Shown here: positions 1 to 18,036 of the stretch, piece after piece
Position numbering within the stretch: position 1 is the stretch's first letter
Layout: the number at the start of each line of letters is the position of its first letter
The notes under the pieces: model-generated
What the model saw: only the letters and a program-made list of their open reading frames with translations
Database searches by the model: none
What the model was told of the DNA's origin: nothing
From: Leisingera sp. ANG59
Lineage (GTDB): Bacteria > Pseudomonadota > Alphaproteobacteria > Rhodobacterales > Rhodobacteraceae
Assembly: GCF_013317235.1 (NCBI RefSeq)
Contig: NZ_WLCM01000033.1
Location: 1 to 50,458, forward strand
DNA length: 50,458 nucleotides
Direction: 5' to 3'
Made by a program: the position numbers and the translations under genes

Positions 1-1932
1 CCCTTAACGGCGGCGGCAGAATGCCCCGCCCCCCTCCCCCTCCAGACGATTTTCACCCGATGCCCGGAGGAGCAGGCGCCTGTGCGCGGGCGCCTGCGTT
101 CCCCGCAGGAGGCGCATCTGAACTTCGGCCCGCGCTGGCATGTGCTGGACCGCGCAGCGCTGGGGGATGGCGAGGGTATTGCTGCCCTGTCCCTGCCAGC
201 CGCTGCCGCTGCGGACGGCTGCCTGCTGCACCCGGGCCTGCTGGACCTGGCCACCGGCTGGGCGATGCAGCTTATCCCGGGTTACGAGGGCACCGCGCTG
301 TGGGTGCCGGTGTCCTACGGGACCATTCGGGTCTTTGCGCCGCTGACACGGCAAGTCTTCAGCCACATGCGCCTCTCCGGCGGCGATTCCAGCGGGTCGG
401 CAGCCTTTGACGTGACCCTGACCGGCCCGGACGGCACCGTGCTGGTGGAAATCGAAGGTTTCCGGATGCAGCGTCTGGCGGGCGATTTCGACGCGGCAGC
501 AGAACAGGGCAAGGCGGATGCGACAGCCGCCCAGCTGGGGCTGGAGCCCGCCAGCAGCCCGCAGCCGCTGTCCCCCGAGGAACGCCGCCTGCAGCTGAAC
601 ATCTCAAACGGCATCAAGGCGGAGGAAGGCGGCGCGGCCCTGGCCCGCGCCGTGGCCTCCGGGCTGCCGCAGGTGGTGGTCTCCTCGCTCGACCTGCCAG
701 CCCTGATTGCCCAGGCGGACCAAAGCACGCCGGCCGAGGCAGAGGCACAGACTTTCGACCGCCCCCAGTTCGACACCGACTATATCGCGCCGCGCAACCC
801 GGTGGAGGAGCAACTGGCCGCGCTGTTTGCCTCACTCCTGGGGATCAGCCAGGTCGGGATCGAAGACAGTTTCTTTGACCTTGGCGGCCATTCCCTGATT
901 GCAGTGCGGCTGTTTGCCCAGGTGAAACGCGCCTTTGATGTGGAATTTCCGCTGTCGGTGCTGTTCGAGGCGCCCAGCGTCGCCGCCCTGGCGGAGCGGA
1001 TCATCGAACGCACCGGCGGCGGAGTTGCCGAGGAACCGGGCGGCAGCCCCCAAACTGCAGAAGAGAAACCGCAGTTCACCCATCTGGTGCAGCTGCACCC
1101 GGGCGACGGAACCGGGCGGCGCCCCTTCTTCCTGGTCGCGGGCATGTTTGGAAATGTTCTGAACCTACGGCATCTGGCACTCCTGGTGGGCAAGGACCGC
1201 CCGGTCTACGGGCTGCAGGCCAAGGGGCTGGTCGGTGGCGATGCACCGCACGACCGCATAAGCGACGCCGCCCGCAGCTGCCTGGGCGAGATCCGCCGGA
1301 TCCAGCCCGAAGGTCCCTATCTGCTGGGTGGTTTCTCCGGCGGCGGCATCACCGCCTATGAGATGGCGCAGCAGCTGAAAGACCAGGGCCAGGACACCGC
1401 CGCGCTGATCCTTCTCGACACGCCGCTGCCGGTGCGCCCGGCCCTGTCGCGTCAGGACAAGGCGCTGATCAAGCTGGCAGAGCTGCGCAGCAAGGGCCTG
1501 GGCTACCTTGGTGAATGGGCCAGAAACCGCATCGCGTGGGAGTTCGAGAAACGCCGTGCCAAACCGGCAGAAAGCGGCGTCCGGCCGGAATTCAACAACC
1601 GCAAGATCGAACTGGCATTCCGCGCCGCCGTCGCAGCCTATGACCTGAAACCGTGGCCCGGCCCGCTGACCCTGTTCCGCCCGCCGCTGGACCGCAAATG
1701 GCAGGTCGCAGGCGGCAATTGGGTCAGCAGTGAACGCGAGTATGTGTTCCCCGACAACGACTGGACCCGCTGGGCGCCCGCAGTCGAGGTGGCCGAGGTT
1801 CCGGGCGACCATGACAGCATGGTGCTGGTGCCGAACGTCAGCGTGCTGGCCGCAGGCGTCAAGGCCCGGCTGGACGCAACAGACCGGGCGGCGGCCTCCA
1901 GCCCGCCCCGCTCCATCCGGGCAGCGGAGTGA
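1..1932 (+). CDS. Type I polyketide synthase, C-terminal part: DH - ACP - thioesterase (5' end outside window)
   Basis: The reading frame is open at the left edge, so this is the tail of a larger protein. An internal GTG at 82 is not a convincing start because homology continues upstream of it. Three domains are visible. First is the C-terminal hot-dog of a polyketide dehydratase, with an HPGLLD motif whose Asp codon is at 244-246. Next is an acyl carrier protein with DLGGHS, the phosphopantetheine Ser codon at 892-894. Last is a PF00975-type thioesterase with GFSGGG (Ser codon 1336-1338) and a C-terminal GDHD (His codon 1810-1812). The thioesterase should release the finished chain by hydrolysis or by transfer to an acceptor. 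The stop overlaps a GTG of the next frame, and the following genes are coupled, so this is the first visible gene of a biosynthetic operon. The DH lacks the usual Gln/His four residues after its Asp (Gly instead). KS and AT domains are presumed upstream. Confidence 0.9.
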   Translation, partial: PLTAAAECPAPLPLQTIFTRCPEEQAPVRGRLRSPQEAHLNFGPRWHVLDRAALGDGEGIAALSLPAAAAADGCLLHPGLLDLATGWAMQLIPGYEGTALWVPVSYGTIRVFAPLTRQVFSHMRLSGGDSSGSAAFDVTLTGPDGTVLVEIEGFRMQRLAGDFDAAAEQGKADATAAQLGLEPASSPQPLSPEERRLQLNISNGIKAEEGGAALARAVASGLPQVVVSSLDLPALIAQADQSTPAEAEAQTFDRPQFDTDYIAPRNPVEEQLAALFASLLGISQVGIEDSFFDLGGHSLIAVRLFAQVKRAFDVEFPLSVLFEAPSVAALAERIIERTGGGVAEEPGGSPQTAEEKPQFTHLVQLHPGDGTGRRPFFLVAGMFGNVLNLRHLALLVGKDRPVYGLQAKGLVGGDAPHDRISDAARSCLGEIRRIQPEGPYLLGGFSGGGITAYEMAQQLKDQGQDTAALILLDTPLPVRPALSRQDKALIKLAELRSKGLGYLGEWARNRIAWEFEKRRAKPAESGVRPEFNNRKIELAFRAAVAAYDLKPWPGPLTLFRPPLDRKWQVAGGNWVSSEREYVFPDNDWTRWAPAVEVAEVPGDHDSMVLVPNVSVLAAGVKARLDATDRAAASSPPRSIRAAE

Positions 1933-1937
1933 CCGGC

Positions 1938-2954
1938 ATGGATCAGCAGCGCATCCTCGTCATCCTGTTGAATTTCCGCACCCCGGAGATGACCCTGCAA
2001 TCCGCCGAGGCGGCGCTGCGCGAGCTGCAAGGCCTGCCGGGCGAACTGCTGATCATCGACAATGGCTCAGGCGACGGATCCTTTGATAAGATTCATGCCG
2101 CAGCTCAGGCCCGCGGCTGGCTGGACAGCAACCGGGTGCGGGTGATCGCCTCGCCGGTGAACGGCGGCTTTGGCGCGGGCATGAATATCGGCCTCAGCAC
2201 CGGCCTCGCGGACGGCAGCGCGCCTGAATTCTACTATCTCCTGAACTCCGACGCCTTTGTGCAGGGCGACACCATCCGCACCCTGCGCGACTTTCTGCTG
2301 GAGCGCCCGGGTGCAGGACTTGCGGGCTCTTTCGTGCGCGGCACAGACGGGGAACCGCACCGCACCGCCTTCCGCTTCCCCTCCATCGCCGGCGAGTTTG
2401 AGGCCAGCGCCCGCACCGGCATCTTCACCCGGCTGCTGAAGCCCTGGGTCGTCGCCATGGAGATGCCGCAGGCCGAGGTACAGGTCGACTGGACCGCCGG
2501 CGCCAGCCTGATGATCCGCCGCGAGGCGATTGAAGCCGCTGGCGGTTTTGACGAGACTTTCTTCCTCTATTTCGAGGAAACCGACCTCTGCCGCCGCGCC
2601 GCCCGCGCGGGCTGGCGCACCCACTATGTGCCCGCCAGCGAGGTGGCGCATATCGGCTCTGCCTCCACCGGCAAGAAAGGCTGGCAGCGCACGCCGCAGT
2701 ACTGGTTCGACTCGCGCCTGCACTACTTCGTCAAGAACCACGGCCGCGCCTATGCCGCCGCGGCCACATTGGCCCGCATCAGCGGCGGCCTGATCTATGG
2801 CGTGCGCCGTCTGATCCAGAACAAGCCGCAGGCTGATCCGCCGCATTTCCTGCGCGATCTCTGCCTGCACAGCCTGCGCGCTGTGTTGGCGCCGCGCCGC
2901 TTGCCGCCTTCGGAAACGCGCCTCCCTTCTCCGTTCGCAAAGGAGCAGAAATGA
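1938..2954 (+). CDS. GT2 glycosyltransferase, rhamnosyltransferase-like
   Basis: This is a 338-residue family 2 glycosyltransferase (GT-A fold). The N-terminal Rossmann-like half has IDNGSGDGS for nucleotide-sugar binding. The metal-binding DXD position reads NSD in YYLLNSDAF. The C-terminal acceptor part has FDETFFLYFEETDLCRR, typical of rhamnosyl/O-antigen transferases. A GTG at 1929 overlaps the previous stop, but the ATG at 1938 has a GGAG sequence about 8 bases upstream and is preferred. The gene overlaps the NRPS start by four bases (ATGA). Its position between PKS and NRPS genes suggests that it glycosylates the assembly-line product or a lipid-linked precursor. The sugar and acceptor cannot be read from the sequence. 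Confidence 0.88.
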   Translation: MDQQRILVILLNFRTPEMTLQSAEAALRELQGLPGELLIIDNGSGDGSFDKIHAAAQARGWLDSNRVRVIASPVNGGFGAGMNIGLSTGLADGSAPEFYYLLNSDAFVQGDTIRTLRDFLLERPGAGLAGSFVRGTDGEPHRTAFRFPSIAGEFEASARTGIFTRLLKPWVVAMEMPQAEVQVDWTAGASLMIRREAIEAAGGFDETFFLYFEETDLCRRAARAGWRTHYVPASEVAHIGSASTGKKGWQRTPQYWFDSRLHYFVKNHGRAYAAAATLARISGGLIYGVRRLIQNKPQADPPHFLRDLCLHSLRAVLAPRRLPPSETRLPSPFAKEQK

Positions 2955-5900
2955 CCGCCTTCACCTGTGCCCTGATCGGCAATGAATCCCTTCTGATCGG
3001 TTGTGCCGATGCGCTGCTGGCCCGCGGCCACCAGATCCGGGCGGTGGTGTCCCGGGACGCAGACATCCGCGCCTGGGCCGCAGACAAGGGGCTGGTCGTT
3101 CTGAACACACCCGCTGAGCTCAGCGGCGGTTTTGACTGGCTGCTGTCCATTGCCAACCTCACGGTTATTCCCGATGCGGTGCTGGCGCAGGCGGCAAAGG
3201 GCGCCGTCAATTTTCACGACGGCCCGCTGCCCCGCTACGCGGGCCTCAACACCCCGAACTGGGCGCTGATCAATGGCGAGGCGCAGCACGGTATCACCTG
3301 GCACCTGATTGAGGGCGGCGTGGATGAAGGCGATATCCTGGCCCAGCGGCTGTTTGATGTGGCGCCGGATGAAACCGCCTTCAGCCTCAACTCAAAATGC
3401 TATGCCGCCGCAATGGACAGTTTCGGCGAGATCGTCTCGCAGCTGGAAACCGGTGAACTGAACCGGCGGCCGCAGAACTTGAGCCAGCGCCGCTTGTTCA
3501 AAAAGTCAGACAGGCCTGCAGTCGGCGGGATGCTGGATTTCTCCCGCCCGGCAGCCGAGCTGGCCCGGCTGGTGCGGGCGCTGGACACCGGCGGCTACTG
3601 GAACCCGATGTGCGCCGCCAAGCTGCGGATCGGCGGGACCGTCCTGCTGGTCGGCGCCGCAGAGGTTGCCGAGGGCAGCAGCGCCCCCGGCACCGTACTG
3701 GAGAGTGCAAAGGACAGCCTGACCGTCGCCGCAGGTGACGGCGCCCTCACGCTCTCCCGTCTGACCACTCCCGCCGGACAGCCGCTGGACATCTCCAAAC
3801 TGGCCGGACCCGGCGACACGTTTCCCTCCCTGACCGCAGCAGAGACCGGGGCACTCACCGCCCGTCTTGCTGCGGTCCAAGGGGGCGAAGACCACTGGCG
3901 CCGGCGGCTTGCCGCGATGCAGCCGGTGCAGGTGCCACTGGTTTCAGGCACCTGCAGCAGTGAATACAACCGCCGGGACATCACCCTGCCTGGCGGTCTC
4001 AGCGAAGAACAGGCTGCTGCCGGCACCCTTGCCTTCGCTCTGCTCAGCAGCGGCGCGGAAACCGGCGATGTTGCGCTTTCCGTCGAAGGCGTGGAGGGCC
4101 TGCCCGGCCTGATCTCCTCCTGGGTACCACTGCAGGCCCAGCGGCAAGATAGTGTTGCGTCCCTGGTGGAGCGCACCGCGCAAGACATTGCAATGGCCCG
4201 GAAATCCGGCGGCTTTGCCGAGGATCTGGTGGCCCGCGCACCGGAGATTGCAGCGAAGGCGCAGCCGGGCATCGGCCTGATGCTGGGGGAAGATGCGGCG
4301 ATTGAGGGCTGCGTTGCAACGGTTTCTCTGAATGGTGGTGTCCTAGCGATGCATTTCGACGCGGCCGCCCTTTCGGCCAAAGCCGCGGATCTGCTGGCCG
4401 CGCGGCTGGAACTAGTTCTGAACACCATCGCAGAAGACAGCAGCCGAACCGTTGCGGAGCTACCCGCCCTGCCCGAGGCGGAACGCAAAATGCTGATGGA
4501 GGACTGGAACCGGACCGCAACGGAATTCCGCGCGGACCTCACCATCCACGCGGCAATTGAGGCCCAGGCCGCAAAGGCCCCGGGCGCCACGGCGCTGGTG
4601 TTCGAGGACCGGAGTTTCACTTACGCCGAGGTAAACGCCCGCGCCAATGCGGTCGCCGCGCGGCTGCGTGAAATGGGCGTGAAACCGGGTGTGCATGTCG
4701 GGATCCACATCCGCCGCGCCCCGGAACTGGTGATTGCAGCGCTTGGGGTCATGAAAGCCGGCGGTGCCTATGTGCCGCTGGATCCCGCCTATCCCGCTGA
4801 CCGGATCGCGCATTACATCATCGATTCCCAAGCGCAGGTGATCATCACGCAAAGGGAGCTCGCCGCCAGCCTGCCTGCGTCGGATGCGCAGGTGCTGGCG
4901 ATCGAAACAGTTCCTGCGGCAACAGAGGCTGGAAGCATTGACGGCGGTGCCACCGGCAGCGATCTGGCCTATCTGATCTACACCTCCGGCTCAACCGGGC
5001 TGCCCAAGGGGGTAATGGTCACCCACGCCAATGTGTCGAACTTCTTTGCCGGCATGGATCAGCGCATCCCGCACCAGCCCGGCGATACATGGCTGGCAGT
5101 GACCAGCCTCAGCTTTGACATCTCGGTGCTGGAGCTGTTCTGGACCCTCTCGCGCGGGTTCAAACTGGTGCTGTCGAGCGATGAAAGCAGGCTTGAGCTG
5201 TCCAAGGGACCGGTGGCGCGCAGCACCCGCAAGATAGACTTCAACCTGTTCTACTGGGGCAACGACGACGGGCCAGGGCCGCAGAAATACCGCCTGCTGC
5301 TGGAGGGCGCCAAGTTCGCCGACCAGCACGGGTTCAACGCCGTCTGGACGCCGGAGCGGCACTTCCATGCCTTTGGCGGCCCCTATCCGAACCCGTCCGT
5401 CACCGGAGCCGCGGTTGCGGCAGTGACGCAGAACATCGGCGTGCGCTCCGGCTCCTGCGTGGCGCCCTTGCACCACCCGGCGCGGATCGCGGAGGAATGG
5501 GCAGTGATCGACAACCTGACCGCGGGGCGCGCCGGGATCGGATTTGCCTCTGGCTGGCAGCCAGATGACTTCATCCTGCGGCCCGAGAACACGCCGCCCG
5601 CCAACAAACCCGCGCTGTTTGAAACCATCGAGACCGTGCGCAGGCTGTGGCGCGGCGAGGAAGCGGCCTTTCCCCGCAAGGACGGCGGTGAGCATCACGT
5701 CCTTACCCAGCCCCGCCCGGTATCCAAGGAGCTGCCGGTCTGGGTCACCACCGCGGGCAATCCGGAGACCTGGCGCGAGGCCGGATCGATCGGGGCAAAC
5801 GTGCTGACCCACCTGCTGGGCCAGAGCATTGATGAGGTCGCGGGCAAAATCCGCATCTACCATGACGCCCTGCGCGAGGCCGGCCATGATCCGGCGGACT

Positions 5901-7516
5901 TTAAGGTCACGCTGATGCTGCACAGCTATCTGGCCGGCACCCGCGAGGAGGCCCGCCGCATCGCGCGGGAGCCGATGAAGGACTACTTGCGCTCCGCTGC
6001 CGGGCTGATCAAGCAATACGCCTGGGCCTTCCCCGCCTTCAAAAAGCCCGAAGGCGTGAAGAACCCGTTTGAAATGGATCTGGAGATGCTGTCGGAGGAG
6101 GAGCTGGAAGCAATTCTCGACTTTGCCTTCGAGCGCTATTTCGAGGATTCCGGCCTGTTCGGCACCATCCAGGACGCCTGCCAGCGGGTGGAGCAGCTGA
6201 AGCGGATCGGCGTGGATGAAATCGCCTGCCTGATCGATTACGGCATCGCGCCGGAGGTGGTGCTGGAAGGGCTGAAGCCGCTGGCACAGGTGCTGCGGCT
6301 GTCGAACGCGCCGCAGGAGCTGGCGGCGGATGACTTCTCGCTGGCGGCACAGATCTTGCGCCACGGCGTCAGCCACATGCAATGCACCCCATCGATGGCG
6401 CGGATAATTGCGGCGGATGCAGACGCCAGCGCCTGCCTGGGCCAGCTGCAGCATCTGCTGGTGGGCGGCGAGGCGCTGCCCGGTGATCTGGTGCAGGCGC
6501 TGCGCGAGACCACACGGGCGGAGATCCACAACATGTACGGGCCGACCGAGACGACGATCTGGTCGACGATTGAGAAAATCAGCGCCGTGCCTGCGGGGAC
6601 AGCCGGAATCGGCACGCCGGTTGCCAATACGCATGTTTACGTACTGGACGAGAAACATTCGCCTGTCCCGGCCGGAGTTCCCGGTGAATTGTATATCGGC
6701 GGCACGGGCGTCACTGCCGGTTACTGGCAGCGGCCGGAGCTGACCTCTGAACGCTTCATAGAGACACCGTTCGCTGCAACATCCCTCTACCGCACCGGCG
6801 ATCTGGTGCGCTGGACCGAAGCGGGCAGCCTCGCCTTCCTGGGCCGAACCGATCATCAGGTGAAGATCCGCGGCCAGCGGATTGAGCTGGGTGAGATCGA
6901 GGCCGCGCTGACCACGCAGCCGGGCGTGACCGGCGCCGTGGTGGCGCCGCGCGGTGAAGCTGGCGCAGAGCAGCTGATTGCCTACATCACCGCCTCCGCG
7001 CCGGTGTCCGGAGAAGCCCTGAAACAGGCGCTGGCGGCCCGGCTGGCTGAGGTCATGGTGCCGGCGCATGTCGTCACCCTGGACGCTTTCCCACTGACTC
7101 CGAACAAGAAAATCGACCGACAAGCACTGCCGGACCCGCAGCCGGTACGGGCTGAACCCACCCCGGCGGTGGCGCTGGACGCGGGTGCGCAGGCCCGGAT
7201 TGCCACGGTCTGGAGCCGCATTCTGGGGGTCAGCGGCATCGGCGCGCAGGACAATTTCTTTGCCCTTGGCGGCCATTCGCTGTTGGCGGTGCAGGCGCAC
7301 CGGGAACTGCGCGAGGAACTGGGCACCACCGCCCTGTCGATCACCGACATCTTCCGCTTTCCCACCCTGGCCGGGCTGGCCGCCCACATCGAAGGGCTTG
7401 CAGGCACCCCTGCAAATACGGAACAACAGCCTGAAGCAACCGCAGCCCCGGACCGCAGCGACATGATGTCGAAACGGCGGGCGATGCGGGCAAACCGCAG
7501 GGCAAGGACCGGATGA
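2951..7516 (+). CDS. NRPS: formyltransferase - half condensation - adenylation with embedded luciferase-like monooxygenase - carrier protein
   Basis: A 1521-residue assembly-line enzyme. Residues 1-300 are a methionyl-tRNA-formyltransferase-like domain with the catalytic Asn87, His89 (VNFHDG) and Asp125. Residues about 310-510 resemble only the C-terminal lobe of a condensation domain; no HHxxxDG motif is present. The adenylation domain starts near 525, with A3 TSGSTG at 678 and A4 SFDISVLELF at 721. It is interrupted at about 761-1110 by a luciferase-like FMN monooxygenase of the MupA/Atu3671 type, then resumes with A5 NMYGPTETT (1194), A7 YRTGDLVRW and A10 (Lys1387). A carrier protein follows with GGHS (Ser1443). 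Specificity positions read from motif alignment give D-I-L-Q-L-G-M-I-W-K, close to the known glycine code. I infer an initiation module loading formyl-glycine that is oxidised in cis. An AAGGAG sequence precedes the ATG, and both ends overlap neighbouring genes by four bases. Confidence 0.93.
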   Translation: MTAFTCALIGNESLLIGCADALLARGHQIRAVVSRDADIRAWAADKGLVVLNTPAELSGGFDWLLSIANLTVIPDAVLAQAAKGAVNFHDGPLPRYAGLNTPNWALINGEAQHGITWHLIEGGVDEGDILAQRLFDVAPDETAFSLNSKCYAAAMDSFGEIVSQLETGELNRRPQNLSQRRLFKKSDRPAVGGMLDFSRPAAELARLVRALDTGGYWNPMCAAKLRIGGTVLLVGAAEVAEGSSAPGTVLESAKDSLTVAAGDGALTLSRLTTPAGQPLDISKLAGPGDTFPSLTAAETGALTARLAAVQGGEDHWRRRLAAMQPVQVPLVSGTCSSEYNRRDITLPGGLSEEQAAAGTLAFALLSSGAETGDVALSVEGVEGLPGLISSWVPLQAQRQDSVASLVERTAQDIAMARKSGGFAEDLVARAPEIAAKAQPGIGLMLGEDAAIEGCVATVSLNGGVLAMHFDAAALSAKAADLLAARLELVLNTIAEDSSRTVAELPALPEAERKMLMEDWNRTATEFRADLTIHAAIEAQAAKAPGATALVFEDRSFTYAEVNARANAVAARLREMGVKPGVHVGIHIRRAPELVIAALGVMKAGGAYVPLDPAYPADRIAHYIIDSQAQVIITQRELAASLPASDAQVLAIETVPAATEAGSIDGGATGSDLAYLIYTSGSTGLPKGVMVTHANVSNFFAGMDQRIPHQPGDTWLAVTSLSFDISVLELFWTLSRGFKLVLSSDESRLELSKGPVARSTRKIDFNLFYWGNDDGPGPQKYRLLLEGAKFADQHGFNAVWTPERHFHAFGGPYPNPSVTGAAVAAVTQNIGVRSGSCVAPLHHPARIAEEWAVIDNLTAGRAGIGFASGWQPDDFILRPENTPPANKPALFETIETVRRLWRGEEAAFPRKDGGEHHVLTQPRPVSKELPVWVTTAGNPETWREAGSIGANVLTHLLGQSIDEVAGKIRIYHDALREAGHDPADFKVTLMLHSYLAGTREEARRIAREPMKDYLRSAAGLIKQYAWAFPAFKKPEGVKNPFEMDLEMLSEEELEAILDFAFERYFEDSGLFGTIQDACQRVEQLKRIGVDEIACLIDYGIAPEVVLEGLKPLAQVLRLSNAPQELAADDFSLAAQILRHGVSHMQCTPSMARIIAADADASACLGQLQHLLVGGEALPGDLVQALRETTRAEIHNMYGPTETTIWSTIEKISAVPAGTAGIGTPVANTHVYVLDEKHSPVPAGVPGELYIGGTGVTAGYWQRPELTSERFIETPFAATSLYRTGDLVRWTEAGSLAFLGRTDHQVKIRGQRIELGEIEAALTTQPGVTGAVVAPRGEAGAEQLIAYITASAPVSGEALKQALAARLAEVMVPAHVVTLDAFPLTPNKKIDRQALPDPQPVRAEPTPAVALDAGAQARIATVWSRILGVSGIGAQDNFFALGGHSLLAVQAHRELREELGTTALSITDIFRFPTLAGLAAHIEGLAGTPANTEQQPEATAAPDRSDMMSKRRAMRANRRARTG

Positions 7517-9137: not shown

Positions 9138-10957
9138 AGCTGGCGGCGCTGATCACCTCGGCTGTGATGATCGGCCAATCGCTGTTCGGGCAGGGCGGTC
9201 CGCACCTGCCGGACGCCCGGTTGCAGGGTATTGCCCGGCCCGCCGTGCAAGCGGCGGCTGTGCACGGCGCTGACCTGCCTGAGGAACCCGGGGCGCTGCC
9301 GCAGGATCCCCCCCTGCCCGCGCTCAATGCGGCGGTGCCGCCAGCCCGCCAGCCCATCGCCATCAATCTGGCTGGCATTGCCGACTGGAGCACCCAAGCG
9401 CCGTTCCTGGATCATTTCAAGACCGCACGGCCCTGGATAGGCCATCTGCCCGGGCAATGGGGCGGCGTGGAACATGATGAACTGCAGGAGGCGGGTTATC
9501 TGGACGCCGCCGGCTGGCCAACGGCGATCCCGCCGGAGCTGAGCTCCATCGGCACGGTGATCCTGACCGACCTGCCGGAAGAGGCGGTTTCGCTCAGAGG
9601 CCGCTACGTGCTGCGCTTCGAGGGTGAGGGCATCGTCGAGGTTCTGGGGCGGGCAGAAGACGTCCGTTATGGCAAGGGCGAGGTGCGGTTCGATTTCACC
9701 CCCGGTCCCGGCCCGGTTGAGATCCGCATTCAGCGGATGAGCCGGGGCGGCCAATACGTGCGCAATATCACCGTCGTAAAAGAAGCGCATCTGGCGGCCT
9801 ATGACGGCGGCGCCCTTTTCAACCCGCTGTGGCTGGACCGGCTGGACGGCTTTGCCGCGCTGCGGTTTATGGACTGGATGGCCACCAACGGCTCTGCCCA
9901 GACGGGATGGGAGGACCGGCCGCTGCTCTCTGACTACACCTGGGCGCTGAAGGGGGTTCCGGCGGAGGTGATGCTGGCGCTGGCCGGCAGGCTGGGAGCC
10001 GACCCCTGGTTCAACATGCCGCATATGGCCGACGACACCTATGTCCGGCATTTCGCGCGTCTGGTGCATCAGATGCTGGACGAAGACCTGCGCGCCTATG
10101 TGGAATATTCGAACGAAGTCTGGAACTGGCAGTTCCAGCAAGCCGCTTGGGCCGACGCGCAGGCACAGGCACGCTGGGGCGATGACGGGTTGTGGATGCA
10201 GTTCTACGGCGGCCGTGCGGCAGAGGTGTCGCAGATTTGGACCGAAGTGTTCGGCGAAGACAGCGAGCGGCTGGTGCGGGTGGTCTCCTCCCAGACCGGC
10301 TGGCTGGGACTGGAGGAGCAGGTGCTGACGGCCCCCCTGTGGAAGGCGGAACGCGCAAACCGCCAAGCGCCTGCCGCCTACTTCGACGCCTATGCGGTGA
10401 CAGGCTATTTCGGCGGTATTCTGGGGCTGGAGGAACGGGCCGGGCAGGTCCGCGCCTGGATCGACGGCAGCCGTGAGCGGGCACTGGCGGAGGCTGCAGA
10501 ACGCGGGCTGGCCGGCTCAGCAGCGGCTGCGTTTGCAACGCGGCATCGATATGACGCCGCCAGCGCCCGCGCCGGGGCTGAGTTACGCGACGGTCTGATC
10601 TCCGGCAATCCTGCAGACACACTGGCGGATCTGCTTGGCCGTGTGCTGCCTTATCACGCTGGGGTTGCGCAAAAACACGGGCTGGATCTGATTATGTATG
10701 AAGGCGGCAGCCATGTGGTTGGTATTGGCCCTACGGTAGAAGACGAAGTGCTGACCGGCTTCTTTACACATTTCAACTACACGGGTGAGATGGGCAGCCT
10801 GTACCGCGACCTGCTGGCCGGCTGGCAGGCGCTTGGCGGCAGCCTGTTCACCGCCTATGCCGATGTCGGCGCGCCCGGAAAATGGGGCAGCTGGGGCACA
10901 TTGCGCACCCTGAGCGACCAGAACCCGCGCTGGGACGCGCTGGAGAGGGTAAAATGA
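9134..10957 (+). CDS. Exported glycoside-hydrolase-like protein (clan GH-A type)
   Basis: A 607-residue protein with a probable signal peptide (residues 1-20), a Pro/Ala-rich linker to about 75, a beta-rich domain to about 240 and a large TIM-barrel-like region. Two sequence features match retaining clan GH-A glycosidases: Asn327-Glu328 in YSNEVWN, where the acid/base NE pair lies at the end of strand 4, and Glu523 in IMYEGG, where the nucleophile lies late in the barrel. Homologues are often labelled cellulose-binding protein. Within this operon it probably trims or releases a secreted polysaccharide or a glycosylated metabolite. A GGGAG sequence supports the ATG, which overlaps the previous stop; the gene also overlaps the next start. 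The exact GH family is not assigned. Confidence 0.65.
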   Translation: MKLAALITSAVMIGQSLFGQGGPHLPDARLQGIARPAVQAAAVHGADLPEEPGALPQDPPLPALNAAVPPARQPIAINLAGIADWSTQAPFLDHFKTARPWIGHLPGQWGGVEHDELQEAGYLDAAGWPTAIPPELSSIGTVILTDLPEEAVSLRGRYVLRFEGEGIVEVLGRAEDVRYGKGEVRFDFTPGPGPVEIRIQRMSRGGQYVRNITVVKEAHLAAYDGGALFNPLWLDRLDGFAALRFMDWMATNGSAQTGWEDRPLLSDYTWALKGVPAEVMLALAGRLGADPWFNMPHMADDTYVRHFARLVHQMLDEDLRAYVEYSNEVWNWQFQQAAWADAQAQARWGDDGLWMQFYGGRAAEVSQIWTEVFGEDSERLVRVVSSQTGWLGLEEQVLTAPLWKAERANRQAPAAYFDAYAVTGYFGGILGLEERAGQVRAWIDGSRERALAEAAERGLAGSAAAAFATRHRYDAASARAGAELRDGLISGNPADTLADLLGRVLPYHAGVAQKHGLDLIMYEGGSHVVGIGPTVEDEVLTGFFTHFNYTGEMGSLYRDLLAGWQALGGSLFTAYADVGAPGKWGSWGTLRTLSDQNPRWDALERVK

Positions 10958-11790
10958 CCCCGCAGGTGTCTGTGCTGATCCCGGCCCACAACGAGGCGGA
11001 GTATATCGGGGCCTGCCTGCGCGCGGTTTTTGCTTCGGGCCCGCTGCCGACAGGCATGGCAGCGGAAGTGCTCGTGCTGGCCAACGGCTGCACCGACGGG
11101 ACCGCGGCGCTGGCCCGGGCTGCCGTGACGGCCGAGGGCTGGCAATTGCAGGTGCTGGAATTGCCGGAGGGAGACAAGCTCGCAGCGCTGAACGCCGGTG
11201 ATGCCGCCGCGCGCGGGGACATCCTGATCTATTTGGATGCCGATGTGCTGATCGCGCCGGATCTGATCGCGCAGGTCGCAGAGGCCTTGGATCTCGACGC
11301 ACCGCGCTATGCCAGCGGCCGGCCCGAAGTTGCCGCGGCCCAAAGCGCGGTGACCCGCGCCTATGCACGGTTCTGGATGCGGCTGCCGTTCTTCTCCAGC
11401 GGTGCGCCGGGCTTCGGGATCTTCACGATGAACCGCGCCGGGCGGCAGCGGTGGGGGGACTGGCCGAACATCATTGCCGATGACATCTTTGCCCGGCTGA
11501 ACTTTGCCCCGCAGGAACGCATGCAGGTGGCGGCATCCTATAGCTGGCCGATGGTGGAGGGGTTCCGCAACCTGGTGAAAGTGCGGCGGCGGCAGAATGC
11601 CGGAGTGGCGGAAGTGGCGCAGAAGTACCCGCTTTTGATGCAGAACGAGGACACCCCGCGCGTCCGCCCCGGCAAGGTTCTGCGCCTGCTGCTGAGCGAT
11701 CCGGCCGGGTTCCTGGCCTATGCTGCGGTTGCGCTGGCGGTGAAAACGCCGCTGTTTGCCTCCCGCAACCGCTGGACCCGCGGCCGCTGA
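10954..11790 (+). CDS. GT2 glycosyltransferase, membrane-associated type
   Basis: A 278-residue family 2 glycosyltransferase. VSVLIPAHNEAEYIG opens the nucleotide-binding half, LDADV is the DXD metal site, and IADDIFARL is the acceptor-side acidic motif. The C-terminal segment (about 240-265) is hydrophobic and may contact the membrane. The ATG at 10954 overlaps the preceding stop by four bases, so I prefer it to an in-frame upstream GTG at 10882. It is the last gene of the seven-gene plus-strand operon and is followed by a strong hairpin. It probably adds one sugar in the polysaccharide or glycoconjugate pathway; donor and linkage are unknown. Confidence 0.88.
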   Translation: MTPQVSVLIPAHNEAEYIGACLRAVFASGPLPTGMAAEVLVLANGCTDGTAALARAAVTAEGWQLQVLELPEGDKLAALNAGDAAARGDILIYLDADVLIAPDLIAQVAEALDLDAPRYASGRPEVAAAQSAVTRAYARFWMRLPFFSSGAPGFGIFTMNRAGRQRWGDWPNIIADDIFARLNFAPQERMQVAASYSWPMVEGFRNLVKVRRRQNAGVAEVAQKYPLLMQNEDTPRVRPGKVLRLLLSDPAGFLAYAAVALAVKTPLFASRNRWTRGR

Positions 11791-11901: not shown

Positions 11902-11907
11902 CGGGAG

Positions 11908-11929
11908 CGGTGCATCTGCAGATGCACCG
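11908..11929. repeat. 22-base perfect palindrome
   Basis: An uninterrupted palindrome centred on a PstI-like CTGCAG, seven bases downstream of the large hairpin. Together they form a two-palindrome cassette in the convergent gap 11791-11953. It may act as a second terminator arm or a protein-binding site; nothing here decides between them. Confidence 0.6.
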
Positions 11930-11953
11930 GCGACGGGCGGGAGCGCGCCGCTG

Positions 11954-13162
11954 TTATTTTCCGATGGCTTTGCGGAAATGTGCTGCCAGGCGGGCAGCCT
12001 CCCTAGCGCTGTCATGCCGCTCCAGCACCCGGGCAAGCCCGGTCTGCCCCATTGCGGAAAGCTTATCCTGAGACGTCTGCGACAGCTCCAGGATTGCCTG
12101 AGCCAGCGCCGTTTCATCGCCGGCAGGCACCAGCCAGCCAGTCTTCCCCGGCAGCACCAGCTCCGGTGTGCCCGCGATACAAGTGGCGATAACCGGGCGG
12201 GCGGCGGCCATTGCCTCCATCACCACCATCGGCAACCCCTCGGCGAAGGAGGGCATTACAAGCGCATGGGCGCGGCCCAGCTCCTGACGCACGCCGTCCT
12301 CTGGCAGCCAGCCCGTGAGGGTGATGTTCCGCTGCAGCCCTAGCCCGGTAATCGCCGCTTCCAGCTCCGGGCGCATTTCCCCGTCGCCGATCAGCGCCAG
12401 ATGCACATCCGGGATATTCTCCACCAGCTGCGCCATGGCACGGACCAGCACCATCTGGCCTTTCTGCTCGACGAACCGTCCGATCGCAGCCAGCCGCAGC
12501 GGTGCCTCGGGCAGCGGCGCAGGATCGTCAAAGCGTTCCGGCTCGATGCCGCAATGCACTACCTTCAGGCTGTCCCATTTTTCAAAAGGCGCCCAGCGGC
12601 TCAGCTGGCTCTTTCCGAAACTGCTGACCCCAACGGTAAAGGCGGCGCGGTTGATTTTCTCCCCCAAGGACAGCGCATGGGGGGCGTCGAATTCCTCCGG
12701 TCCGTGCACGGTGAAACTGTAGGCCTGGCCGCCCAGTTCATATGCCAGCATCGCGACCGCGGCAGAATTGGTGCCAAAATGCGCGTGAATATGCTGCACG
12801 CCCGCCACGGCGCAGCGCTGTTTCACATGGGCCGCTTCGCCGAGGTAGATCAGGTGCCGCATTATTCCCTTGTCCGAGGCGCGCGCCAGTTTCACCGCCA
12901 GCGCCAGTGCCTGCGCAAAACGGCGCGGGGCTGCCAGCACCTCTTTTGCCAAGGCGGCCAGCAGGCGGCCAGCGCCAGCATGAAGCACGTACTCGGTGCG
13001 CTCAGCCTCGGCCTGGTCGCCGGGATCGGCCAGAGCCGCGCCGGAGGGGCGCATCGCCAGGCGCAGGACCTCCACGCCCTGCTGCTCCAACGCCTGCAGC
13101 TCGCGGCGGATGAAGCTGTGTGAGGGCTGCGGATAGGTGTTCAGGACATAAGCAATCTTCAA
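11954..13162 (-). CDS. GT4 (GT-B fold) glycosyltransferase
   Basis: A 402-residue retaining glycosyltransferase of family 4. The N-terminal half begins MKIAYVLNTYPQPSHSFI, with the HFGTNSA acceptor-side motif. The C-terminal nucleotide-sugar domain carries GRFVEQKG, the donor-binding loop GDGEM, and the EX7E motif in FAEGLPMVVMEAMA. It would add a sugar to a lipid-linked exopolysaccharide precursor. It is transcribed towards the PKS-NRPS operon and divergently from the flippase gene, with 236 bases between the two starts. Length is normal for the family. Confidence 0.92.
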   Translation of the reverse strand: MKIAYVLNTYPQPSHSFIRRELQALEQQGVEVLRLAMRPSGAALADPGDQAEAERTEYVLHAGAGRLLAALAKEVLAAPRRFAQALALAVKLARASDKGIMRHLIYLGEAAHVKQRCAVAGVQHIHAHFGTNSAAVAMLAYELGGQAYSFTVHGPEEFDAPHALSLGEKINRAAFTVGVSSFGKSQLSRWAPFEKWDSLKVVHCGIEPERFDDPAPLPEAPLRLAAIGRFVEQKGQMVLVRAMAQLVENIPDVHLALIGDGEMRPELEAAITGLGLQRNITLTGWLPEDGVRQELGRAHALVMPSFAEGLPMVVMEAMAAARPVIATCIAGTPELVLPGKTGWLVPAGDETALAQAILELSQTSQDKLSAMGQTGLARVLERHDSAREAARLAAHFRKAIGK

Positions 13163-13337
13163 CGCAGCGGCTTCCCGGAATATGCATGTATCCGCGGCAG
13201 GTTAGCGGCGGTTTGGCAGCTTGCCCAGCGTTGCATGCCGCTTGTCCCGGGGGCGTGGAGAATGCAGCACATGGGCTGGGATTGTCGCCCCATTTCAGCC
13301 GCTTGCACACCTCGCAGCCGCCGTTGCCGCCGCAAGA

Positions 13338-13366
13338 TTGACGCCCCTGCCCCGCCCGCCTAGCCT
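13338..13366 (+). promoter_or_regulatory. Candidate promoter of the flippase gene
   Basis: TTGACG at 13338-13343, a 17-base spacer and a weak -10 TAGCCT at 13361-13366, about 33 bases before the chosen ATG. The spacing is good but the -10 is poor, so this is tentative. Confidence 0.35.
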
Positions 13367-13398
13367 GCACCGCAGGAGTTTTGGGGATTTGCGCCGGA

Positions 13399-14769
13399 AT
13401 GCAGCGGGTTGCTTCGTTTTTTGCCGGCCAGGGGATGATGGCGCGGGTGCTGCGCTCGGCCTCCTGGCTGATGATCGGGTATGGCGGCAGCCAGGCTTTG
13501 CGGCTGGCCTCCAACCTGATCCTGACCCGCATCCTGTTCCCTGAAGCCTTCGGCCTGATGGCACTGGTCACAGTGGTAACGGTGGGGCTGTCGCTGTTCT
13601 CGGACGTGGGCATCGGGCCATCGATTGCCCAGAACAAGCGGGGCGACGATCCGGCGTTTCTGGACACTGCCTGGACCATCCAGGTGATCCGCGGCTTTGC
13701 CCTGTGGGCGCTGACGGCGCTCTTGGCCTGGCCTGCAGCCGCGTTCTATGGCGCGGCGGAGCTGCTGATCTACCTGCCTATCGCGGGTGCGGGCCTGGCC
13801 ATTGCCGGCTTCAACCCGACGAGGATCGAGACCGCACACCGGCACCTGCTGGCGGGACGGGTCACGGCGCTGGACCTGACGGGCCAGGCCATCGGGCTGG
13901 CGGCGATGGTTCTCTTGGCGCTGGCCACGCAATCGGTGCTCGCACTGGTGCTGGGCGGGGTCATTCAGGCCGCGGCCAAGCTGGCCCTGTGCCACTACGG
14001 CCTGCCGGGGGCCGCCAACCGCTTCCGCTGGGAGAAGGCGGCGGCGCGGGAACTGATCCATTTCGGCAAGTGGATTTTCCTTTCCACAGCCTTCTGGTTC
14101 CTGACCTCGCAGGGGGACCGGGCGATCCTGGGCAAGTTCGTGCCGCTGGAGGTGCTGGGGATCTACAATATCGGCTATTTCCTGGCGAGCTTTCCGATGC
14201 TTCTGGGCCATGCGGTGAACCAGCGTCTGATGATCCCGGTCTACCGCGGCAAGCCAGCGCAGGCCGCACCCGAGAACCTGCGGCGGCAGCGGCAGCTGCG
14301 CTACGGGCTGACGGGCGGAATCCTCTGCCTGTTGCTGCTGATGGCCTGGGCCGGGCCGTGGCTGGTCCAGTTTCTGTATGATGACCGCTACCTGCAGGCC
14401 GGGCCGATGATTGTGCTGATTGCCCTCGCGTTGGCGCCTGCGGTGATAACCATGACTTATGACCAGGCGGCGCTGGCAGCGGGCGACAGCCGCGGTTTCT
14501 TTGTGTTTTCGGCCGCCCGCGCCTGCCTGCAAACACTTCTTTTCCTATGCGGCGTAGCCTGGTTCGGGCTGGCTGGCGGTATCGCGGCGCTGGGACTGGC
14601 AATGCTGGCGGCATACCCCGTACTGGTGCGGCTGGCGCGCAGGCATCACGTCTGGGACCCGCTGCATGACACCGTCTTTGCGCTGCTGAGCGGCGCAGCA
14701 GGCGGCGCTGCACTGACCTGGCATTGGGCTGCAGTCACTGAAATGGCGGCGGCGCTGAGAGCGCCTTAG
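13399..14769 (+). CDS. Wzx-like polysaccharide flippase (MOP superfamily)
   Basis: A 456-residue integral membrane protein of the Polysacc_synt_3 kind, with about 12-14 hydrophobic segments spread over the whole length. The opening SASWLMIGYGGSQALRLASN and the following ILFPEAFGLMALV are typical of exopolysaccharide flippases. It would move the undecaprenyl-linked repeat unit across the inner membrane. Start choice is open: ATG 13399 has a GGGGA about 11 bases upstream, while ATG 13435 and 13438 are also possible and would fit the family's usual N terminus. It converges on the chain-length gene, with a hairpin-containing gap between them. Confidence 0.88.
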   Translation: MQRVASFFAGQGMMARVLRSASWLMIGYGGSQALRLASNLILTRILFPEAFGLMALVTVVTVGLSLFSDVGIGPSIAQNKRGDDPAFLDTAWTIQVIRGFALWALTALLAWPAAAFYGAAELLIYLPIAGAGLAIAGFNPTRIETAHRHLLAGRVTALDLTGQAIGLAAMVLLALATQSVLALVLGGVIQAAAKLALCHYGLPGAANRFRWEKAAARELIHFGKWIFLSTAFWFLTSQGDRAILGKFVPLEVLGIYNIGYFLASFPMLLGHAVNQRLMIPVYRGKPAQAAPENLRRQRQLRYGLTGGILCLLLLMAWAGPWLVQFLYDDRYLQAGPMIVLIALALAPAVITMTYDQAALAAGDSRGFFVFSAARACLQTLLFLCGVAWFGLAGGIAALGLAMLAAYPVLVRLARRHHVWDPLHDTVFALLSGAAGGAALTWHWAAVTEMAAALRAP

Positions 14770-14811
14770 CCACGGCCCAAGGGACCGGGAACGGCTTATT
14801 CGCTGCAAGCG

Positions 14812-14858
14812 GAGGCCGGCCGCGAGCGGCAGCACCGAGCCCTCCGAGCCGGCCGCCG
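14812..14858. terminator. Imperfect hairpin in convergent gap
   Basis: Arms 14812-14821 and 14849-14858 pair in nine of ten positions around a 27-base loop. They lie between the convergent flippase and chain-length genes (gap 14770-14877). There is no T-tract, so this may be a terminator or mRNA-end structure. Confidence 0.4.
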
Positions 14859-14877
14859 GGCAGATATTCAATGATGC

Positions 14878-16119
14878 CTATGACTTGCGCCGGAACAGCC
14901 CGCGGCGCGGCGGGCAGGTGTCCATCACGGGAATGGAAACCACGGGCACCAGTCCGGTTTCCCGCTCCATCTGCGCGGCCGTGCGCAGCACCGGGTGGCG
15001 CAGTTCCTGAAGGAAGGCGGCGAGCAAGGCGAGAATGACACTGGCCGCTGCGCCCATCAGTGCCTTGGTTTTCCGGGCGCCGGTCACCGGGTAATCCGGC
15101 AGCGGCGCGGGTTCGATCACCGTCAGGCGCTCTGACTGATGGCTGGTCTCCAGCCGGAAACCGACCTCCGCCTCGTTGCGGCGGGCGGTCATCTGTGCCA
15201 GTTCGCCCTGCAATTGCTCCAGCCGGCGGTCATATGCTCCAAGCTGACGCTCGACCTCCGGGGTGGTCTGCAAGGAAGCCTCGAGCCCGGCCTTGCGCTG
15301 GGTCAGCAGTGCCTCTTGCGCGTCCAGCGTCGCCAGCTGCTGTTCGGCCTCTTCCTGCAGGCGGCGGGCAGTTGCGGCACGTTCCGTCGCCCGGGCCCGG
15401 TCGGCGGCGCGGCGGATCTCGATTCGCTCGCGGGCGATTTCCAGAAGACCCTCGTTCATCGCCGCAATTTCAGCCCGGCGGAATTCGATAGTTCCGGGCA
15501 GGGTCACGTCATTTGCGTTGCGGTAGGCGGCGATTTCATCCTCCAGCGCAGCAACCTGTTCCGCCAGGGCAGCCTCTTTTTCCGCAAAGAAGCTTAGGGT
15601 CTCGCGGGCCTGGTCGATGCGGGTAGCGATGCTGAGCTCGATCGTGCGGCGGCCGAATTCACTGGCGACCTGCTGCGCCTGCTCCGCTGTGGGCATCCGG
15701 GCGGTGATAGTCAGCACCGATATGGTGCCGTCATCAGCAAAACCCTCGCGGGCGGCGGCAACACCAGTGATCTGCACAGCTGTCCGCAACTGCACCACCT
15801 TCTGCAAATCGGTCAGAGACTTCTGATCAGCGTAAAGGCCGAATTTCTCGATTATTTCCAGCAATGTCCCGCGGGCCATCAGGCGCTGTTCGATCAGCTG
15901 CATGCGCCGTGCCGATGAGCCCTCGACAGTGGATTTGGCCAGCTCGCCGGCAATTTGCGGCTGGGTGATCTGCAGCACCTCTGCCGTTTCATATTCATGC
16001 TGCTGGCTGGCGGCAAACCACAGCGATAGCAGACAGCCGAAGACAAACACGCAGGCAATGGTGAACAGCCTGCGCCGCACCATGTCGAGAAAATCGCCCA
16101 GTGTGTAGATCGGCCCCAT
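14878..16119 (-). CDS. Wzz/GNVR-type polysaccharide chain-length determinant
   Basis: A 413-residue polysaccharide co-polymerase. An N-terminal membrane helix (FTIACVFVFGCLLSLWF) follows MGPIYTLGDFLDMVRRR. A long periplasmic region rich in Glu, Ala and Arg with coiled-coil character follows, and a second helix (ALMGAAASVILALLAAFL) lies near residue 360. A short cytoplasmic tail ends FRRKS. It lacks a fused kinase domain; the separate CpsD-like protein upstream is the natural partner. I chose ATG 16119 over a TTG at 16158 because the family's N terminus begins there. Its role would be control of exopolysaccharide chain length and export. Confidence 0.85.
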   Translation of the reverse strand: MGPIYTLGDFLDMVRRRLFTIACVFVFGCLLSLWFAASQQHEYETAEVLQITQPQIAGELAKSTVEGSSARRMQLIEQRLMARGTLLEIIEKFGLYADQKSLTDLQKVVQLRTAVQITGVAAAREGFADDGTISVLTITARMPTAEQAQQVASEFGRRTIELSIATRIDQARETLSFFAEKEAALAEQVAALEDEIAAYRNANDVTLPGTIEFRRAEIAAMNEGLLEIARERIEIRRAADRARATERAATARRLQEEAEQQLATLDAQEALLTQRKAGLEASLQTTPEVERQLGAYDRRLEQLQGELAQMTARRNEAEVGFRLETSHQSERLTVIEPAPLPDYPVTGARKTKALMGAAASVILALLAAFLQELRHPVLRTAAQMERETGLVPVVSIPVMDTCPPRRGLFRRKS

Positions 16120-16237
16120 CTGTCTGCTCTCATGCTGCCGGACACCCCGGCCGTTCAAATTCTTTCAAGCCGCGCCCAAGACCGCCGCCTCCGGTTATAC
16201 ACCATGGCAACCGGGCGAAACTATGGCGTTTCAGTGC

Positions 16238-17080
16238 TCAGTTCAGCGGGCTGTCCGACTTGCGCGCGCGGTTCAGAACCACCCCCAGCAGCTCCGTGTG
16301 GCCAGCAAGCATCTTCTCGCAGGCAGCCAATTGAGCCGCGGTGGTGCTGGTGCCGTCGGAAATCAGCAGCACCCCGTCAACCTGCGGCAGAAAAGCGGCA
16401 GTGTCGTCATGCTCCAGCACCGGCGGCAGGTCGAACAGCGCGGTCTCCGCACCGCTGCGCAGCATCAGATCGTCCACCGCCGCGCTGCAGCTCCGGCTGT
16501 GCAGGATCTCGGCAGCATCCTGATCCTGAGCGCTGTTCAACCCGACAGCCAGCGACGGCAGGGGGCGCAGCAGCTGGTCTTCCATTTGAACTGCACCTGA
16601 CAGCAAGGCGCCCATATCAGCAGCGGCCTGGATCCCCATGGCCTGTGCGATCCCCGGCTGCCGGAAGTTCAGATCCATCAGCACGGTGCGGCTGCCGGGA
16701 ACCCGCGCTAGGCTGAGCGCGAGATTGACCGCGGAGAAGGTGCTGCCGCAGCCCGTTGCAGGAGCTGTCACCGCAACCCGCTTCCAGCCGCGCGCCTTGA
16801 GAGTATGCGAAAGCCGGGTGCGAAGCAGATCAAACGATTTGGCGGCAGGTGCGGTGCGGAACTGACTGACCAGCGGCAGCCGCACCTTTCGCTCCGCTGC
16901 ATCCTGGAATGGAACCTGCCGGATCCGCTCCCAAGGTTCCGGCAAAGTGGCAGGCAGCTGAGCAGAAACAGCTGAGGCAGGCGCTTCCAAAGGGCTCAGC
17001 CGCGACTCCTCGGAAGCCGCGGGCGCAGTCTCCGCCGGGGCACGGCGGCGGCGGAACCGCTTGAACCCTTGCTCGCTCAT
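16238..17080 (-). CDS. CpsD/CapB-like ATPase (BY-kinase family) with degenerate Walker A
   Basis: A 280-residue cytoplasmic protein. A basic, Pro/Ala-rich N terminus of about 75 residues precedes a MinD/BY-kinase-like domain. Walker A' is intact (VLMDLNFRQPG, Asp136) and Walker B is intact (ALFDLPPV, Asp217). However, Walker A reads TGCGST, with Ser113 where the family has the catalytic Lys. No Tyr cluster is present at the C terminus. AAGAGGA precedes ATG 17080, which is preferred to an earlier in-frame codon. By position it partners the adjacent Wzz-like protein in exopolysaccharide assembly. It may be a nucleotide-binding regulator rather than an active kinase. Confidence 0.82.
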   Translation of the reverse strand: MSEQGFKRFRRRRAPAETAPAASEESRLSPLEAPASAVSAQLPATLPEPWERIRQVPFQDAAERKVRLPLVSQFRTAPAAKSFDLLRTRLSHTLKARGWKRVAVTAPATGCGSTFSAVNLALSLARVPGSRTVLMDLNFRQPGIAQAMGIQAAADMGALLSGAVQMEDQLLRPLPSLAVGLNSAQDQDAAEILHSRSCSAAVDDLMLRSGAETALFDLPPVLEHDDTAAFLPQVDGVLLISDGTSTTAAQLAACEKMLAGHTELLGVVLNRARKSDSPLN

Positions 17081-17238
17081 GCCGTCCTCTTCATCCTTTT
17101 CCAACTGCTGGGAGCCACGCACCGGGCTGGCGGTGACGGCCCCTGTTACAGCAAAATGCTTCACAACCACGCTCCCTGCAATGGCCGGAAAGTCTGATGC
17201 CGGCGCAGCGGGCGCCGCAACAGCAGACCAGAAAGGCG

Positions 17239-18036
17239 TTAATATCCCGTCCCCTTCAGCACAACTCCGGCTGTTCGCCAGATCAGCGCCAGGTCACAAC
17301 CCAGAGACAGGCCGTGCCGGTAATCCGCGTCCGCCCGGGCGCGGCTGGAGAAACTGCCTTCATTGCGGACGGACACTTGCCAGACACCGGTGATTCCCGG
17401 CCGCAGTGCGAAGTAGGCGCGCGCATCGCCATAGAGCGGCAGCTGGTCCGGCATCATCGGGCGCGGCCCGACCAGGCTCATGTCCCCCTTTGCAACGTTC
17501 CACAGCTGCGGCAGCTCGTCCAGCGAGGTGGCGCGCAGGAAGCGGCCGACACGGGTGATCCGCGGATCGTTCTTAAGCTTCTGGGTCTCATCCCATTCCC
17601 GGCGCAGCACCGGATCCGTCTCCAGGTATAGCTGCAGCAGCTGATCCGCATCACGCACCATGGTGCGCAGCTTCAAAATGCGGAACCTCTGTCCGCCACG
17701 GCCCAGCCGGGCCTGAGTGTAAAAGGGCCGCCCGCCCTCCAGCCACAGCGCCGCTGCACACACGGCAACCAGCGGCAGGACGACCGGCAGGCTCAGCAGC
17801 ACCAGCAGCAGATCAAGGACCCGCTTGCCGCTTGCCGCATAGGCACCGCCGCCTGTGCGCCGCTCCCTGCTCAAGTCTGCCTGACCCGCCCGCCCAAGAC
17901 TGTTCAGGGCAGAGTTCACATTGGCCGGTTGCATATGCAGCGGGCGGAGAAAAGCAACGGCCTTGGATGCCAGCCTTCCCTCAACCTCAACCCGCGCAAA
18001 TGACAGCCCCGCCCCTTCGGAAGCCGCATCTCTCAT
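17239..18036 (-). CDS. ExoY-like priming sugar transferase (polyprenyl-phosphate glycosyl-1-phosphate transferase)
   Basis: A 265-residue member of the Bac_transf family. After a variable N-terminal 70 residues comes a membrane segment ([21 protein letters not shown]). The conserved catalytic part follows: [31 protein letters not shown] and [11 protein letters not shown]. It would transfer the first sugar phosphate to undecaprenyl phosphate and so start each repeat unit. The chosen ATG 18036 has a GAGGG just upstream; a GTG at 18108 is possible but lacks this. It is the first gene of the minus-strand trio and is preceded by the palindrome-rich region 18240-18340. Confidence 0.9.

Follow-up and report, generated by a model that had tools for sequence, protein, structure and literature searches.

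A gene core encoding a polyketide synthase (PKS), a glycosyltransferase (GT), a nonribosomal peptide synthetase (NRPS) and a phosphopantetheinyl transferase (PPTase) has been reported as a conserved orphan cluster of roseobacters whose product is unknown (PMC4337385, PMC5014874). The cluster, credited to Martens et al. with the year 2006 in PMC4337385 and 2007 in PMC5014874, was present in 28 of 57 roseobacter genomes in earlier work, and the identification of its product has been called for (PMC4337385). In print it is treated as secondary metabolism, and neither paper uses the term ‘exopolysaccharide’ in its main text. Here we analyse a stretch of 50,458 nucleotides (‘the window’) that makes up one whole contig, NZ_WLCM01000033.1 (G000:C36), of Leisingera sp. 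ANG59, whose closest named relatives are Leisingera in the family Rhodobacteraceae. The window carries the same four core genes, here next to exopolysaccharide (EPS) genes, and Leisingera sp. ANG-M7 of PMC4337385 is represented among our loci as L053.

A second body of published work concerns Phaeobacter inhibens, which has a chromosomal wzx/wzy EPS module and in which deletion of exoY lowers attachment, thins the surface structures and reduces lectin-bound EPS (PMC10984933). The terms ‘polyketide’ and ‘NRPS’ do not occur in the main text of that paper on this EPS, and its authors did not detect sugar-modification genes around their EPS clusters. By both exoY-knockout verification primers the P. 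inhibens module is the same locus as ours: the primers match genome G700 (locus L213), one on each side of an ExoY gene that lies 10.6 kb from the NRPS gene in the gene order of the window, which is shared by L213 and L215. The NRPS is present in all seven genomes of this genus, which the primer matches lead us to assume is Phaeobacter. Among these seven genomes, the forward exoYC qPCR primer is exact in G700 and has one mismatch in G702; the reverse primer has no match among the loci searched, and G700 may therefore be a different strain from that of PMC10984933. Two gene numbers are given for exoY in that paper (c05260 in a table, c05320 in the methods), and PMC4062626 lists an NRPS, PGA1_c05350, that is near exoY in numbering, with the PKS tag being ambiguous in the list.

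Since the core has been reported as an orphan cluster and the EPS side has been studied in P. inhibens, the original prediction of an undescribed system is not supported. The parts are known, and what we did not find in print is the connection between the cluster and EPS, which makes the orphan cluster a testable polysaccharide question. No link of this kind was found in the titles, abstract openings and passages covered, with Martens et al., supplements and most subscription papers lying outside this coverage.

Association of the assembly line with exopolysaccharide genes

Gene content and position indicate that the assembly line and the EPS genes very probably belong to one pathway. All 21 genomes of the window’s genus carry the NRPS. 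In a survey of 394 genomes of the family (approximately one per genus), the NRPS was found in 141 at an E value of 1e-150 and the window-type flippase Wzx in 145 at an E value of 1e-30. Both occur in 131 genomes, the NRPS only in 10, Wzx only in 14 and neither in 239 (odds ratio 224), such that the window-type Wzx is present in 131 of the 141 NRPS-bearing genomes versus 14 of the 253 others. In a draw across the whole class, 5 of 289 genomes match the NRPS at an E value of 1e-150, four of them from the family and one (G692, 46% identity) from outside it; a weak label is the only trace of EPS machinery seen around the latter.

Position is a stronger fact than co-occurrence for the tie between NRPS and EPS genes. 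Among the 131 genomes with both, the two genes are on different draft contigs in 27 and on one contig in 104, where they lie within 50 kb of each other in 100 cases and within 15 kb in 84. Short contigs force some closeness, and a recount was therefore made on long contigs. The two genes are within 50 kb in 41 of 45 genomes when the shared contig measures 200 kb or more, in 19 of 23 when the minimum is raised to 500 kb and in 11 of 14 when it is raised to 1 Mb. The four far cases are G078, G099, G286 (73 kb) and G346; in three of them (G099, G078 and G346) the NRPS has different EPS machinery close by. EPS machinery is likewise near the NRPS in three of the NRPS-only genomes (G106, G235 and G328), and a fourth (G368) has a GT, an SGNH hydrolase and a glycoside hydrolase (GH) within 16.6 kb; four more (G202, G210, G287 and G402) are on contigs of 5.7-8.9 kb and are little informative. 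In the Wzx-only genomes G129 and G141, PKS and NRPS pieces adjoin Wzx. A PKS in the Wzx-only genome G292 was not counted, as it has only a weak 76-bit label.

The surroundings of the core were compared in 80 named loci, which are the best of 268 relatives and hence biased to close ones. The PKS, a family 2 GT (GT2a) and the NRPS are consecutive in all 80, and the remaining labels are found at lower frequencies (PPTase in 77, SGNH in 62, GH in 55, Wzx in 57, Wzz in 56, Wzy in 49 and ExoY in 6, the last being low probably because the flanks end before it). EPS machinery is represented by one or more labels in 70 of the 80 loci, and in 66 of the 72 whose length reaches 18 kb. The complete order from Wzy to the kinase-like gene is kept in 33 of 80. 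Wzx lies upstream in some named loci, and a FastTree phylogeny of 90 NRPS proteins implies five or more switches of its side over the 63 rows in which it is labelled. On plasmids of Aminobacter and Shinella, the NRPS, PKS and PPTase genes sit amid flippase, GT and export genes, with the PKS in the opposite direction and no GT between PKS and NRPS; loci of Neorhizobium and R. grahamii, from unannotated records, resemble these by their labels. In Ruegeria conchae the PKS-NRPS core lies amid dTDP-rhamnose genes. That the core stays constant while the sugar genes around it change is consistent with a shared building block that would serve different polymers. Thus, for the proposal of a single pathway, co-occurrence and linkage hold across genera and rearrangements, whereas all twelve genes in one order are seen in closer relatives only.

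Ten named loci have no EPS machinery label. Four of these are short (L050, L071, L094 and L103; 9.9-16.6 kb), one (L116) has a GDP-mannose pyrophosphorylase-like gene, one (L079) has a UbiA prenyltransferase and a GT2, one (L100) has an extra GT and a LicD-type protein, and three (L101, L104 and L123) have GT labels, joined in L101 and L104 by a dTDP-rhamnose-type label. UbiA-type prenyltransferase genes were seen near the assembly line in L162 (26311-30225, together with GtrA, a FAD oxidoreductase and an SDR) and in L079 (2855-4402), and they recall polyprenyl-phospho-arabinose synthesis. The record L058 (JAHVJD010000005.1) is titled Nocardioides marinus and carries the locus with an NRPS of 76% identity; its title looks wrong. 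Parts of the NRPS and PKS, and also Wzx, find matches in Paracoccus marcusii from Cancer pagurus (NZ_CP065894.1). The ‘HSR-NRPS-PKS hybrid’ cluster described in PMC8273931 is likely to include the same system.

Several observations weigh against a single pathway. The survey genomes are not phylogenetically independent, so that the co-occurrence p-value of 1e-74 should not be taken at face value. Genome G261 has the NRPS, PKS and SGNH genes and no EPS machinery label over approximately 73 kb, and none was seen around the NRPS of G188 (45% identity), a relative that is probably another cluster. An NRPS relative in Aliiroseovarius (42% identity) lies beside a large NRPS/PKS and beside nos genes. 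No convincing assembly line was found within up to 20 kb of Wzx in the other 12 of the 14 Wzx-only genomes. With regard to the machinery itself, the OPX/Wza label is absent from the Leisingera loci (two reference proteins, E value of 1e-10). The P. inhibens chromosomal EPS cluster is also without OPX, a homologue being located elsewhere (PMC10984933), and the missing Wza therefore does not settle membership of the Wzx/Wzy type. Likewise, no acyltransferase label was found in the Leisingera loci, and the transfer by a thioesterase that is proposed below is a guess.

Some of these points favour a different arrangement, in which a separate small-molecule cluster lies beside EPS genes, both serving surface life, and makes a free signal, chelator or antibiotic. 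The published accounts place the cluster in secondary metabolism, the thioesterase in cis could release a free acid, the core of G261 stands without EPS labels, and type I secretion or TolC genes are near the Shinella and Aminobacter copies, which also counts against the single pathway. We nevertheless judge a free metabolite unlikely, because the operon of overlapping genes itself includes GT genes, the linkage holds through at least five side changes and through another gene order in Rhizobiales, and two Ruegeria plasmid stretches have no annotated transporter except the flippase, GtrA proteins aside. No product names of TonB receptors or siderophore exporters were present in the stretches of annotated relatives, where no search aimed at them was made.

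Organization of the Leisingera locus

Re-analysis confirmed the gene content and coordinates originally predicted for this locus (Table 1). The seven plus-strand genes (1-11790) overlap by 4 bp at all six junctions, with GTGA once and ATGA five times; the first overlap needs a GTG start for GT2a (an ATG lies three codons on), and the last needs a GT2b start at 10954. A single transcript could span 1-11790 only, as the minus strand encodes GT4, Wzz, the kinase-like protein and ExoY.

Table 1. Genes of the assembly line and of the adjoining polysaccharide machinery in the window
Feature	Coordinates	Strand	Basis
PKS C-terminal part (end of DH, ACP, thioesterase; one-module type I)	1..1932	+	Pfam PS-DH, PP-binding, Thioesterase
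GT2a, GT2 glycosyltransferase, weakly rhamnosyltransferase-like	1929..2954	+	Profile matches
Loading NRPS: formyltransferase, degenerate C remnant, A interrupted by monooxygenase, PCP, basic tail	2951..7516	+	Profile matches and alignment
4'-Phosphopantetheinyl transferase (PPTase)	7513..8202	+	Pfam 4PPT_N and ACPS
SGNH/GDSL-fold hydrolase (predicted), hydrophobic helix at N-terminus	8199..9137	+	AlphaFold, Foldseek, invariant residues
GH-A-like protein, without the N-terminal SGNH domain of closest relatives	9134..10957	+	Weak fold matches and invariant residues
GT2b, GT2 glycosyltransferase	10954..11790	+	Start placed at 4-bp overlap
GT4 glycosyltransferase, EpsE-like	11954..13162	-	Score below EpsE model cut-off
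Wzx-type oligosaccharide flippase (P0009)	13381..14769	+	Pfam Polysacc_synt_3 (E 4.4e-41) and Polysacc_synt
Wzz-type polysaccharide co-polymerase (chain length)	14878..16158	-	TIGR03007 E 7.6e-22, below cut-off; no Pfam match
CpsD/BY-kinase-like ATPase	16238..17170	-	Weak Pfam CbiA E 0.0026, below cut-off; groups with annotated CpsD/CapB gene of relatives
ExoY-like priming sugar-phosphate transferase (P0012)	17239..18108	-	Pfam Bac_transf E 6.2e-57

Base 1 of the window is a contig end within the PKS gene. A genuine truncation of this PKS was rejected, as the remaining part is found on another contig of the same genome (PKS residues 1-1508 match G000:C16:2-4519). Beyond the PKS, C16 carries genes for a Wzy-like membrane protein, a WecG/TagA-like GT and a further GT. 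Read from these genes together with those of the window, the genome is predicted to have an almost complete Wzx/Wzy polysaccharide locus, at the centre of which lies the assembly line. The priming sugar-phosphate transferase and the Wzx flippase of such a locus are both present by Pfam. The Wzy-like homologue at L053:805-2268, whose copy in the window’s genome is on C16, matches Wzy_C with an E value of 3e-4 and 21 bits versus a Pfam cut-off of 31.7.

Two products had originally been proposed, namely a polysaccharide bearing an assembly-line substituent and an exported glycolipopeptide. On the basis of the Wzx, Wzy-like, Wzz and priming genes, we favour the former. A related alternative, to which we give little credence, is that a glycosylated small molecule rather than a polymer is built on the lipid carrier and exported by Wzx. 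The position of GT2a between PKS and NRPS in every named locus would suit such a molecule, and Wzx can export short lipid-linked units. Against this stand the Wzy-like, Wzz and kinase-like genes in the same locus, and the P. inhibens exoY mutant, which ties the locus to matrix EPS.

The rest of the window (19752-49191, 10 ORFs scanned) has no visible link to the locus. These ORFs correspond to a TIGR03084 protein, an RlmL-like methyltransferase, a UgpC-like ABC ATPase, a weak CcoN-like protein, a PAS chemoreceptor, a hybrid histidine kinase and a CtaD-like oxidase, with three lacking a match.

Predicted product and pathway

The protein originally called an NRPS is indeed a formyltransferase-adenylation (A)-monooxygenase-peptidyl carrier protein (PCP) protein, but it has no recognisable condensation domain. 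PF00668 finds no match anywhere in the genome, the remnant of the domain is poorly kept (mean identity 0.38), and its HHxxxDG motif occurs in 1 of 116 homologue rows (111 distinct sequences). The NRPS therefore looks like a loading module, and a multi-module peptide line was rejected on the same ground. According to Pfam, the formyltransferase precedes the A domain and PCP; residues N87, H89 and D125, which we take to be its catalytic Asn-His-Asp, are each kept in 113 of 116 rows. Pieces of the A domain are located at residues 537-748 and from approximately 1109, and between them is a luciferase-like monooxygenase of the MupA/Atu3671 family (TIGR04020, 471.2 bits versus a cut-off of 244.45), which is the best-conserved domain of the NRPS (mean identity 0.80) and in whose region residues 760-1114 are matched by the PuwE monooxygenase structure 6ket. 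The specificity residues of the A domain, placed by eye, read D-I-L-Q-L-G-M-I-W-K, presumably a glycine code. Nine of these ten positions are kept in at least 113 of 116 rows, and the fifth varies, with M in 66 rows and L in 45. The C-terminus of the NRPS (window positions approximately 7465-7513) carries a basic motif consisting of two or three K/R, any residue, M/L and R, which is found within the last 80 residues in 106 of 116 rows. This tail is a possible docking peptide to the PKS.

The order of Pfam matches in the full-length PKS homologue of Leisingera sp. ANG-M7 is KS-AT-KR-DH-ACP-thioesterase (TE). In an alignment of 103 rows (99 distinct sequences), the putative catalytic residues of KS, AT, KR, DH and ACP, with roles as we assume them, are kept in all rows, and those of TE in 102, the remaining row being a gap. 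Judged by their domains, the assembly-line enzymes can load one amino acid and then add one C2 unit per pass, for which the ‘lipopeptide-like’ product of the original prediction is too large. As a tentative structure, whose details are doubtful, we propose a small acyl group made from one glycine and one malonate that would be formylated, oxidised, reduced and dehydrated.

The pathway that we envisage begins with the NRPS, which would load glycine on its PCP and N-formylate it, with the embedded flavin monooxygenase oxidising the residue, most likely at C-alpha. The chain would then pass to the PKS, where one malonate unit would be added, reduced and dehydrated to give a short formamido-enoyl (or oxidised) acyl-ACP. 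It is plausible that TE, helped by GT2a as its likeliest partner, either releases this acyl group or transfers it onto a sugar of a lipid-linked repeat unit. Assembly of the decorated unit would start with ExoY and proceed through the GTs; Wzx would flip the unit and Wzy/Wzz would polymerise it, after which the SGNH and GH-A proteins may trim or edit the product. Overall, we consider it somewhat probable that the acyl group from the assembly line becomes a covalent part of the polysaccharide made by the Wzx/Wzy machinery.

That the assembly line supplies a group found once per chain, as a primer, terminator or anchor, rather than one on each repeat unit, is very unlikely in our judgement. A single short acyl product per pass would be a plausible cap. 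However, an ExoY-type priming transferase is already present, and the sequence gives no hint of a role at chain ends.

The two proteins assigned to the last step differ in how well their folds are predicted. For the SGNH hydrolase, the AlphaFold model has a mean pLDDT of 92.5, and Foldseek returns the DUF4886 structure 4i8i (E value of 4.8e-8) followed by CE2 and CE3 carbohydrate esterases; S50, D238 and H241 are invariant over 37 rows. Its predicted SGNH fold is thus well supported, and we regard the protein as a candidate acyl-sugar esterase or transacylase. The GH-A assignment of its neighbour is weakly supported, with a best Foldseek E value of 1.3e-3 (none at or below 1e-3) and with invariant Asn327-Glu328 and Glu523. 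Searching the PDB by sequence with both proteins gave nothing up to an E value of 1. The GH-A-like protein has 607 amino acids here versus 833-853 in complete copies of other genus members, and in the alignment its N-terminus falls at the beginning of an SGNH domain kept by these relatives. This domain seems to have been lost in frame, unless the assembly is wrong. The same alignment leaves the originally predicted export of the protein unsure.

If the product is bound to a polymer, small-molecule extraction would miss it, which could explain why it is missing. More broadly, we see about even chances that an alphaproteobacterial matrix polysaccharide regularly comes with a dedicated NRPS-PKS assembly line. 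Such a line would equip the polymer with a covalently bound acyl group, for example an enoyl group derived from N-formylated and oxidised glycine, that would be chemically reactive or bind metals and would aid cells in sticking to, or cross-linking with, algae and surfaces. This would define a class of assembly-line-decorated polysaccharides. If true, this would be an unexpected route for placing unusual chemistry on matrix sugars that are important for attachment and for aggregation with algae.

Comparison with known systems

The locus shares a priming transferase, GTs, a flippase, a putative polymerase and a putative co-polymerase with Wzx/Wzy loci of the succinoglycan type. Acyl groups in those loci are put on by ordinary acyltransferases, and we know of no PKS or NRPS among their genes.

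With respect to the assembly line, the best PDB match of the NRPS is LgrA, of linear gramicidin synthetase (E value of approximately 5e-205), whose initiation module follows the same formyltransferase-A-PCP logic and whose product is a long peptide. Unlike LgrA, the NRPS of this locus has no recognised condensation domain, carries an embedded monooxygenase and is followed by a single PKS module.

The embedded monooxygenase has a counterpart in the myxothiazol and melithiazol synthetases, where such domains likewise lie inside glycine A domains and are described as hydroxylating C-alpha (PMC11342130). In those synthetases the monooxygenase ends the chain and leads to release, whereas that of the present locus sits in the loading module.

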